The notes under the pieces are model-generated. The model was not told where the DNA came from. It saw only the letters and a program-made list of their open reading frames with translations, and did no database searches. A stretch of 64,000 bases of DNA from Pseudomonadota bacterium (GTDB taxonomy: Bacteria; Bdellovibrionota; FAC87; UBA2466), in assembly GCA_009927165.1 (NCBI GenBank), contig RFNO01000117.1, positions 1-64,000 of the forward strand, in the 5' to 3' direction. Both the position numbers and the translations under genes were made by a program. Of the stretch, positions 1,014-29,274 are shown piece by piece (positions within the stretch are counted from its first letter, which is position 1; each line of letters starts with the position of its first letter).

Positions 1014-1925
1014 TTATTCATTGCGAAGATCCAGATTGCGGGTGCGGTCACACTCGCTTTCTAAGGCATGTTGAGTGCTAGGTGTTGAGTCTAATTGCTC
1101 AAAATATTTTTCCAGAGCCAGGGTTGTACTTTTAATGTCTTGGCTGCTGCCGTTACGCAACTCTACGAGAAGTGACCAAGCTCCATGTTTCCAATAAGCA
1201 TAATCCTCAAAAGAGCCATCACAAGGATAGACGATTTCTGTCGAGGTTCCATACCGATAGCCATTGATCTCAGCAGCTTTTGATGTGATTTCAACGAATC
1301 GGTTATGATCTAAAGTGTGGTCGTTTTTGACAGCGATGCCCCAGGGATAAGTGAAAGTACCCACGAATCCATGAAGGGTAGCACTGCCCGTAAAAGGGCG
1401 TGAAGCGAGTAGCTCCATCGCAGCTTTAACACTCGCTAGTTTTCCTCCTGCAGCTGAAATGCAAGGGCCCGGGTAATCTCGGTTCGGATCCATGCCGTGT
1501 TCATGCCGATGATTCTCATTGTATCCAGAAATATTAAGCACAGGGACGATAGTCCACTCTGTATCCGAAAGTTGGCCTCGATAGAGCTCAGAGCTATCAA
1601 AGCGTTGTATTAACGAATTGAGAAAATCTAAAGAAAGGTCTGCTGCTGCCCCTTCGTTGCCATGGTGTGTTCCAACAATGAGGTGACCAATTTTATTTTT
1701 ATCCATTTTCGATGGATGGGTACTGACGCGCATCGCGTAAATATCAACTCCATCATCATTTTTTCCAATAGAGTAGAGGGCGGTTGTGGAGGCATGTTCT
1801 TTCTGGATCGCCTGCATCTTTTCAACGATGACGGTGTAGCGGTCTTTTGCATTGGCAGCTTGATTGAAAAGAAAGCTCGTTAATCCGATGATAAATATGA
1901 ATTGGCGCATAATGGCCCTCCCCAC
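1014..1925 (-). CDS. Secreted M14-family zinc carboxypeptidase-like protein
   Basis: Signal peptide; 'GTHHGNEGAAADL' (HxxE) and 'HGMDPNRDYPGPC' motifs; likely start at an internal Met (MRQFIFIIG...). Confidence 0.75.
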   Translation of the reverse strand: MGRAIMRQFIFIIGLTSFLFNQAANAKDRYTVIVEKMQAIQKEHASTTALYSIGKNDDGVDIYAMRVSTHPSKMDKNKIGHLIVGTHHGNEGAAADLSLDFLNSLIQRFDSSELYRGQLSDTEWTIVPVLNISGYNENHRHEHGMDPNRDYPGPCISAAGGKLASVKAAMELLASRPFTGSATLHGFVGTFTYPWGIAVKNDHTLDHNRFVEITSKAAEINGYRYGTSTEIVYPCDGSFEDYAYWKHGAWSLLVELRNGSSQDIKSTTLALEKYFEQLDSTPSTQHALESECDRTRNLDLRNE

Positions 1926-2013: not shown

Positions 2014-2042
2014 TTTTCAAGGCTCCATCGCCCGACTATATT
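2014..2042 (+). promoter_or_regulatory. Candidate sigma70-like promoter for the histone gene (TTTTCA - 17 nt - TATATT)
   Basis: -35 2014-2019, -10 2037-2042; AGGAG RBS at 2083-2087, 6 nt before the ATG at 2094. Confidence 0.5.
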
Positions 2043-2093
2043 ACTCCTTTTGAAGCAAGCAGAACCCTTAAACCCAATCTTCAGGAGACAAAA

Positions 2094-2282
2094 ATGGCTA
2101 CCAAAGTCAAAGAAAGCTACATCGTTCAGTCAAAAGTAAAAAGTCTGATCAAAAAGTCAAAAATGAAATGTTCATCAGATGTCATTGAAGCAGTGAATGT
2201 TTTGATTCACCATGCTGTGAATCGAGGTGTTGAGCGCGCTAAAGCAAATGGTCGCAAAACATTGCGAGCAGCTGATTTATAA
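2094..2282 (+). CDS. Bacterial single-histone-fold protein (Bdellovibrio Bd0055-like)
   Basis: 62 aa: ...SYIVQSKVKSLIKKSKMKCSSDVIEAVNVLIHHAVNRGVERAKANGRKTLRAADL; C-terminal RxTxxxxD motif (RKTLRAAD) and short-long-short helix pattern typical of histone folds. Confidence 0.88.
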   Translation: MATKVKESYIVQSKVKSLIKKSKMKCSSDVIEAVNVLIHHAVNRGVERAKANGRKTLRAADL

Positions 2283-2289
2283 AAGAGAG

Positions 2290-2331
2290 GCCGAGTGTCT
2301 TTGCTTCGGTGATAGGCACTCGGCTTTTTTT
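2290..2331 (+). terminator. Intrinsic terminator of the histone gene
   Basis: 11-bp stem GCCGAGTGTCT (2290-2300) / AGGCACTCGGC (2314-2324), one G-U pair, then TTTTTTT. Confidence 0.9.
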
Positions 2332-19575: not shown

Positions 19576-21210
19576 TTAATCGATCGCTTTTTGAAGAATA
19601 TCGGCTGCTCGATTTGGGCCAATGGCTAAAAGAAACGCAGCCAACTTGGGACCATTTGGTTTTGCCACCAATACTTGATAGACATCTTTGAAAAATACTT
19701 TTCCTTCAATGCCATGATTTTTCATAATCTCCCAAGTTCTATTGGCGAGCATTTCCTCTGATTGAGTTGCTTTGCCTTCTCTTAGCGTCTGGACCAATTC
19801 TTTCATCGCTAATGGAAATTGAGATTTGTGTTTTGGAGCCGATTGAAGAGTAAAACGGAATTCCTCGGGTGCGTAAGTGGTAATCCATTTCCAGGCTCTT
19901 TTTGAGCGTGATAAAAAGCGTTTTTCATCTTCGTCATTGCGAATATCTTTTTGATAAAAAGCTTTTGTTTTTTGTAAATCGCCTTCCTGAATTTGTAATA
20001 AATTGCAAAGATGTCTGAAAGGAAATTGCACTGGCAAAGTCTGGTTCTCAGTGGAAGTATCGACGCGAGAGAATTCATAGATTCTCTTCTCGTAATTCAC
20101 TTTTTTGTCCTCTCCTTTTTCCAAGCCAAAGGCAAACCGTTCACATCGATCAAAATCGTCATAGGCCTTCATAACATCTAAGTCGAAAGCAATCGAAAAA
20201 TCGAGATTGGGCTTTCTGCTGGCAAATAGGTAACGAACTAATGCGGGCTCATAGATTTCTAAAGCTTCAGTTAGCGTGATGAGGTTTCCTGAAGAAGAGG
20301 AGAGCTTAGAGCCCACTCCTTTTGCGAGAACGAAGTCATACTGCACATAAAAAGGTGGTTCTCTTTTCCAGATTTCCCTAACGATTTCACAGCCCGTATC
20401 GTAGGATCCTCCTTGCGACGAATGGTCTTTTCCACCTGGTTCAAAATCGACTTGTTCTTTGGACCAGCGCATAGGCCAGTCTACTCTCCAAAGGAGTTTA
20501 ACCCCTTCTTCTTTTCGAAAATCGATAGAGAATTCTTGCTTGCAAGCTTTGCAAAAGTATTTAACCAATGAAGTATCGTCGTGAGAGACCACTTCAGTAG
20601 TGTCGCGATCACACTGTTTACAGAAAATGCTGAGACAAGACCAATTCGACGGCAAATTTTCGGTACGAGACCGATTTAAAATGTCAGCAATTTTTTTCTG
20701 GTTTTTCAAGGCAACCGAAATCCCCTCAGCATATTGACCAGAACGGTATTGCTCATTTTGATAAATGAAGTGGGGCTGAATACCCAATTGGGCAATTTCT
20801 TTTTCAAAACGGGTTTCAAAATGTCTAGCATAAGAGGTCTCAGTTCCAAACGGGTCTGGTATCTTAGCTAAGGGCCGGCGAAGATTTTTTTCAATTAGTT
20901 CCGAATTTGGTAAATTTGCGGGAACTTTTCTAAGCGCATCGTAGTCATCCCAGCTGTAAATAAAACGAACCTTTTTTCCACGGTCCTTAAGAGCTCTGAC
21001 GACGAAATCCACTGTGATGACTTCTCTGAAATTGCCGATGTGTACCACACCGCTTGGGGAGATTCCTGAAGCACAAACCAATACTTCTTTTTCAGGGTGC
21101 TTTGCCAATAAAGCTTCCGCAGCGTGATCGGCCCAATGAACAGTAGGGGTATCAGAACTGTCTGCGGATGGGGAAGATTTTTGCATTTTTTCTTTTTCCA
21201 TAACGACCAT
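19576..21210 (-). CDS. lysK: Lysine--tRNA ligase, class I (archaeal-type)
   Basis: 544 aa; HIGN class I motif 'SGVVHIGNFRE', 'KLSSSSGN' KMSKS-like motif, 'IYSWDDYDALRKVP'. Confidence 0.92.
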   Translation of the reverse strand: MVVMEKEKMQKSSPSADSSDTPTVHWADHAAEALLAKHPEKEVLVCASGISPSGVVHIGNFREVITVDFVVRALKDRGKKVRFIYSWDDYDALRKVPANLPNSELIEKNLRRPLAKIPDPFGTETSYARHFETRFEKEIAQLGIQPHFIYQNEQYRSGQYAEGISVALKNQKKIADILNRSRTENLPSNWSCLSIFCKQCDRDTTEVVSHDDTSLVKYFCKACKQEFSIDFRKEEGVKLLWRVDWPMRWSKEQVDFEPGGKDHSSQGGSYDTGCEIVREIWKREPPFYVQYDFVLAKGVGSKLSSSSGNLITLTEALEIYEPALVRYLFASRKPNLDFSIAFDLDVMKAYDDFDRCERFAFGLEKGEDKKVNYEKRIYEFSRVDTSTENQTLPVQFPFRHLCNLLQIQEGDLQKTKAFYQKDIRNDEDEKRFLSRSKRAWKWITTYAPEEFRFTLQSAPKHKSQFPLAMKELVQTLREGKATQSEEMLANRTWEIMKNHGIEGKVFFKDVYQVLVAKPNGPKLAAFLLAIGPNRAADILQKAID

Positions 21211-27588: not shown

Positions 27589-27737
27589 GGCACACCCTTA
27601 TTAAGGGCTGAGATAACAGTGCCTGGAAATCACTCAAACTGTTCTTGGCAGACTGATTGCAACTCACGGCCTTGAGCCGCTCTCCGTGTGGGGAGCTAAC
27701 TCTGTAGACCTTCTGTTTAAAGAAGAGTCTCAGAGTT
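27589..27737 (+). ncRNA. Hairpin-rich leader or independent structured RNA
   Basis: Consecutive hairpins: GGCAC/GTGCC enclosing CCCTT/AAGGG; CGGC/GCCG; GCTCTCC/GGGGAGC; AACTCTG/CAGAGTT extended by AGAC..TTCT/AGAA..GTCT. Confidence 0.45.
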
Positions 27738-27786
27738 GTGTGCTCTGTTTATCGATGAGTGGAATTTGTTTTCGCGGAGTGGTCTG

Positions 27787-29274
27787 ATGAAAAAGCAAGC
27801 GGTTCGTAATTCAGTTTTGGCAGCAGCGCTGGGTGTAGTGATGGTTATTCCCGTCCTTAGCTATGCTGAAAGTTTTGATGAGTACAATGCAAGCTTCAAA
27901 AAAGACTTGCCGAAAGTTGATGCTCTTTTAAAAGGCTCTGCTCCTGGGGCTTCATCGGAGAGTTTAAGAGAAACAGTCGCTTCCAATTTAGCACAAGCTG
28001 CTGAAGGCCTTGAGCTGGGGGGCGCACGAAAAGAATTGTTTGAAGAAGAAACCAAACTTCAAAAATGGCACGATAAAATTAAAAAGGCCAACGCTCTTGG
28101 GCCTGCTATGGACAGCTTTGTTAAGAAGGCAATCAGTGATCGCAGCTTGAAACTTGATAAAGCACAAGAATTGACTAGCCAGCTTTCGGCTTCAACTCCT
28201 TTTATTAATCCAGCTGATTTTGACGTTAGCTCCTTGGCAAATTCTTGCCAAAATGGGGTGGATTTTAGTCCTCTGCTCCAAATGGCTCAAAATTTTGGTA
28301 CTGACAAAGTCGATTATTTGAGACGTAAGGCACAAGCTCTTCTCGAAGAGAAATCCGAAGACGCAAAAGCTCTAGAGAAAAAGAAAATTCTTGATTTGAT
28401 TTCAAACTTGAAAGAATTGAATGCTAACAATGAAGCGCTTGATGCAGATGCGCTTAAGCCCGAAGAAGCAGCTAAATTAGATAGCATTCAAGCGATTGAG
28501 TCACGATTAGCAAAACTAAAGAAAGAAAAAAATCCTCAAGCTAAAGCACAGTTCAAACAAATCGAGTCTGATTTGGTGGGAAAATTCCAGAGCTTCACTG
28601 AGCAGTTATTTCAAATTCGAGACAATGACAAACGCGTCCAAATTTTAGGAGACGAGTTTGCTCGTGGAATTGAGCAACAACAACAATTCATGATGATGAT
28701 TGCTCAACAAGCTACCAGCCGATTGGTTGAAAATTGCGTGCAAGAAACCGACGGAATTTTCCAGGAAATTGATAACACTCGAGCCTACTTATCTCCTATC
28801 GTAGGAAGTCGAGTAGCTGGTTTAGATGCCTTAGCTCAAGAAAGAAGAGCAAATAGCATGGGATTCATCCGAGGCGACGTGAACAGCGCATGCCCCGACG
28901 TGAGTACTACTTTACAAGGCACTATCGGAGGATTCTTTAACACTGATTTACCCAATCAGCTTCAAGCAGTTCGCAGTACCAAAAATCCAGCAAAAATGCT
29001 GACTGAAGCCATTGGAGTCATGGACTCTATCCGTAACATGCAAGCTCAGTTGGGACCTTCATTGCAACCCCTGATGGAAGGTTGCGATACTGCAAGCCGA
29101 ATTCGAGAAAGTTTACGTCAGCGAGCCCAAAACTCTCAAAACAGAAACTCGGGCAACGCTTCGACAACAGGTTTGAACAATACGACACCAGGAGTTCCCC
29201 GAAATTCGGTGAACAACTTCCCTGGTTCACCCAATGGGTTTGGTACCATACCGACTCATACGTTCCGTCGATAG
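27787..29274 (+). CDS. Secreted alpha-helical protein of unknown function
   Basis: 495 aa from the internal Met ([27 protein letters not shown] signal peptide); long charged helical segments. Confidence 0.7.

Follow-up and report, generated by a model that had tools for sequence, protein, structure and literature searches.

The window, a 64,000-nucleotide stretch of a fragmented Bdellovibrionota genome, encodes a 62-aa histone that is probably a face-to-face (FtF) alpha3 nucleoid protein, one that would assemble into a ring-shaped tetramer, wrap ~60 bp of DNA, be made from a single-gene transcript, and organize the nucleoid. Residue details at the end of helix 2 and at the C-terminus argue, with good confidence on our part, for this FtF, tetramer type rather than for the dimer type of Bdellovibrio. 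The gene and the elements around it are as follows:

2014-2042, plus strand: predicted promoter, with -35 hexamer TTTTCA (2014-2019), a 17-nt spacer, and -10 hexamer TATATT (2037-2042), from a consensus scan and comparison with relatives
2083-2087, plus strand: AGGAG, ribosome-binding site 6 nt ahead of the start codon, from the sequence
2094-2282, plus strand: histone ORF (62 aa, ATG start), from the ORF translation; single-fold histone, probably of FtF type
2290-2331, plus strand: predicted intrinsic terminator, stem GCCGAGTGTC / GGCACTCGGC followed by 7 T, from folding energy and pair changes in congeners

Histone gene and predicted fold

The translated ORF reads MATKVKESYIVQSKVKSLIKKSKMKCSSDVIEAVNVLIHHAVNRGVERAKANGRKTLRAADL and contains the motif R54-K-T-L-R-A-A-D61 (RKTLRAAD), as the initial annotation had noted. 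A phmmer search against solved structures matched Bdellovibrio HBb/Bd0055 (8CMP/8FVX, E = 6e-8), Leptospira HLp (9QT0, E = 3e-5), and archaeal HTkC (9F2C, E = 1.5e-4). The Pfam profile PF00808, which had been proposed as a check, scored 16.4 bits, under its 21.4-bit cut-off, so that the general histone profile alone could not settle the identity of the protein and homology rests on the solved-structure matches; a search of NCBIfam returned no match.

An AlphaFold monomer model, for which 32 relatives were aligned (mean pLDDT 88), has the three-helix histone fold: residues 12-21 form helix 1, residues 28-51 helix 2, and residues 59-61 a helix 3 of a single turn. The best nine Foldseek matches of this model were chains of HBb, HLp, and HTkC, all alpha3 histones (TM 0.81-0.85 by query length); HBb was the best fold match (E = 1.2e-4), and the monomer fold resembles the three about equally. 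The model has the shortened helix 2 and the helix 3 of 3-4 residues that define alpha3 histones, whereas the helix 3 of ~10 residues found in nucleosomal HMf/HTk is absent, the chain stopping at residue 62 after the one-turn helix. The matches by sequence and by fold bear out the earlier identification of a bacterial single-fold histone. Purifying selection on the gene is strong (pN/pS = 0.087, dS near 1.4, against the congener L033), and the net charge of the protein is +8.7, compared with +1.6 for HBb.

Residues that separate tetramer-type from dimer-type histones

Short alpha3 histones have been split into FtF histones (tetramers) and bacterial dimers (HBb type), plus smaller categories. 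FtF histones conserve R48, N52, R54, T56, and D61 (profile numbering), and their C-terminal carboxylate, just after D61, makes a salt bridge (PMC11390915). Bacterial dimers lack the dimer-dimer residues R48 and N52. The window histone has all five FtF residues at identical position numbers, together with K16 on helix 1, which is also conserved in FtF histones; its chain ends one residue past D61, at the site of the carboxylate salt bridge, and this was counted for the FtF class. It shares with the bacterial dimers the RKTxxxxD motif (R54-K55-T56...D61) and three helix-1 lysines (K14, K16, and K20), but not the absence of R48 and N52.

We compared the protein with homologs in a set of 111 distinct domains. 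The FtF-like rows carry R/N (69 rows) or K/N (11 rows) at positions 48/52, with residue 60 variable; in all 25 HBb-type rows position 48 is not R, position 52 is D or Q, position 60 is R, and the chain runs on past D61 in a C-terminal tail of 4-8 residues, mostly 6. The FtF-like and HBb/ZZ-like sets part cleanly except for one R/E row, and the window histone falls with its orthologs from the same class in the FtF-like set.

HBb/Bd0055 of Bdellovibrio bacteriovorus is a dimer histone (PDB 8CMP, 8FVX, 9EZZ, and 9F0E; PMC10627809, PMC11317129), and the window histone could likewise remain a dimer, bending or coating DNA. HBb is its best solved-structure match both by sequence and by fold, is closest in pairwise identity (45%, against 30-32% for HLp and 33% for HTkC), comes from the same phylum, and shares the helix-1 S-K motif and DNA-contacting lysines, the RKT motif, and the RD clamp. 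However, the window histone has R48 and N52, which are absent from bacterial dimers (Ser/Asp in HBb), and R58, equivalent to HLp R59, where HBb has Met55; Arg57, a main DNA contact of HBb (PMC11317129), is replaced by alanine (A60), and the six residues that follow the clamp aspartate in HBb are missing. The tree also parts the window clade from HBb, although the corresponding AU test is nonsignificant (see below). We therefore regard a dimer of the HBb type as unlikely. The earlier description of the protein as Bd0055-like stands at the level of fold homology, whereas the class residues R48/N52, R58, A60, and the tailless C-terminus point to FtF. It had also been suggested that a divergent N-terminus might alter DNA binding; helix 1, however, keeps S13, K14, K16, and K20, and the informative differences from HBb are C-terminal.

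The FtF assignment is consistent with HLp of Leptospira perolatii, a bacterial FtF histone (PDB 9QT0-9QT2; PMC12701072), in which R59, K21, K15, S14, and K17 are the main contributors to DNA wrapping (PMC12701072). All five are identical in the window histone (R58, K20, K14, S13, and K16, respectively), as are the tetramer residues R49/N53/R55 (R48/N52/R54); both proteins have a single alpha3 fold and end one residue past the RD-clamp aspartate. They differ in overall sequence (~30% identity), in the loop motif (RTT in HLp, RKT with K55 here), and at the HLp interface residues S52, T61, and F63 (A51, A60, and L62), and Leptospira lacks HU/Dps, whereas the window genome carries an IHF-like pair. 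HTkC of Thermococcus kodakarensis, an archaeal FtF histone (PDB 9F2C; PMC11390915), shares fold, length, R48, and the RKTL motif, but is only 33% identical and has Glu at position 52 instead of N52. Other FtF-like histones of Bdellovibrionota (family f9 and others; L013, L020, and L100-L122) have R/K48, N52, and R54 in common with the window histone; they differ in forming a separate tree branch, in an RKTV/RKTI motif, in 3-4 residues past the clamp aspartate and, often, in a lysine/alanine-rich N-terminal tail.

Expression unit and gene neighborhood

The promoter, AGGAG site, and terminator of the initial annotation were all located. The two promoter hexamers match 9 of 12 consensus positions; since the consensus scan alone was at chance level (three sites found, 2.3 expected), comparison across relatives was used in its place. 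Congener L033 has the identical TTTTCA-N17-TATATT pair and spacing, the spacer itself sharing 6 of 17 bases with the window, and in L035 and L036 the start codon is preceded, at a similar distance, by TTAACA-N17-TATGAT; the regions upstream of the L032 and L034 histones showed no clear promoter-like site. Such a site lies 35-60 nt before the ATG in four of the six histone upstream regions, compared with 0 of 3000 shuffles. Owing to its long loop, the terminator (-28.9 kcal/mol, z = -6.5) had escaped a simple scan; congeners carry pair-preserving changes, and in L032 stem pairs are kept through changes on both sides. Judged from these comparisons, related genomes conserve both the promoter and the terminator, which supports the earlier notion of a self-contained expression unit in the window, with read-through possible in L032 and L033. 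In the window, an M14 zinc carboxypeptidase gene (1014-1925, minus strand) lies between an upstream membrane-protein gene and the histone gene, and an M14 gene likewise lies between the two, on the strand opposite to the histone, in L034, L035, and L036. It is absent from this position in the congeners L032 and L033, so that there only 38-63 bp separate the histone gene from a preceding gene on the same strand.

Two congeners, and four further genera in the class, have orthologs of the window histone, and the loci read have neighbors in common: M14 peptidase, GNAT, START-like lipoprotein, UbiB kinase, and RNase R. This shared neighborhood refutes an origin by contamination or from a phage, a reading that the fragmentation of this metagenome assembly (137 contigs) and the closeness of archaeal relatives might have invited; a search of 50,697 phage records also gave no match, and we consider such an origin extremely improbable. 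Elsewhere in the window are a gene for a class I (archaeal-type) lysyl-tRNA synthetase (19576-21210, minus strand; PF01921, E = 4e-125) and an open frame of 512 aa (27736-29274, plus strand) that matched nothing in Pfam.

Distribution, phylogeny, and proposed role

A histone was found in 171 of 192 sampled genomes of the phylum. The host class (15 genomes) excludes both family f6, whose histone L018 matches the PDB sequence of HBb over the aligned region, and family f9, which has an FtF-like lineage of its own; this would place the small class outside Bdellovibrionia and Bacteriovoracia, the two classes in which such histones have been described. In a tree of 98 domains and 45 columns, the seven class orthologs fall together with FtF histones of archaea and planctomycetes, the nearest archaeal relatives being those of Aenigmatarchaeota/Diapherotrites, and two supported branches (97/84 and 99/93) part them from other Bdellovibrionota histones. 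AU tests rejected neither a tree with all Bdellovibrionota histones forced together (P = 0.088) nor one joining the window clade to the HBb group (P = 0.092). Moreover, the archaeal rows were found with seeds from the window protein, including ANGRKTLR, which favors a grouping with archaea. For both reasons we treat independent archaeal origin as a lead only, and did not adopt horizontal transfer from archaea as an established reading, although the tree suggests it. More speculatively, the class may carry a third histone lineage that came from archaea independently; wrapping and bending histones would then be the main chromatin proteins of sister classes within a single phylum.

The window histone is the only histone found in its genome (137 contigs, 96% complete). 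The HU-family genes found there are two, IHF-alpha/beta-like (G000:C67:12771-13040, L145; G000:C68:54068-54334, L146), and no separate HU gene was found beyond them in the 96% complete assembly; ribosomal L2 was not found in it either, and its S12 gene sits at the end of a contig with no operon around it. An extra HBb-like histone domain, possibly of ZZ type, occurs elsewhere in the class, within 150-200-aa open frames of other genera (L088 and L092-L095); none of this kind was found in the window's genome. In genus g6, a sister genus of the same family, none of six genomes (G007 and G009-G013) had a histone at E <= 1e-3, the one match having E = 0.66, which suggests histone loss.

The absence of a detectable histone from these six genomes implies that the protein is dispensable in that lineage and, with the IHF-like pair in the host, would fit a histone-fold protein with no global role in the nucleoid, such as a minor or regulatory DNA-binding protein that is expressed at a low level. 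Several points speak against this: no other histone was found in the genome, the gene has a promoter and a terminator of its own, both conserved, and is under strong purifying selection, and the protein is highly positively charged and keeps nearly all DNA-contact residues; we think a minor role quite unlikely, and the window histone is likely a nucleoid component. For an FtF nucleoid protein, the fold implies that monomers would pair into histone-fold dimers. By analogy with FtF structures, R48, N52, and R54, located where helix 2 ends and in loop 2, would then hold two dimers together as a ring-shaped tetramer, along with the C-terminal carboxylate after D61. As in HLp, ~60 bp of DNA would wrap nonspecifically around the ring, held by S13, K14, K16, and K20 of helix 1 and K55, T56, and R58 of loop 2. 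The gene would be transcribed alone, from its own promoter, and its product would organize the nucleoid beside the IHF-like pair. Tetramerization, wrapping, and abundance are thus predictions by analogy.

Among bacterial histones, just two have been studied well, each from a different phylum: HBb, which bends or coats DNA, and HLp, which wraps it. The present case warns that best sequence identity to Bd0055 is no predictor of binding mode, for which residues 48, 52, 58, and 60 and the C-terminal tail offer direct test points. A predicted wrapping histone is now placed in the phylum of HBb, in a small class and as the sole histone found in its genome, so that both binding modes could be compared between related bacteria.
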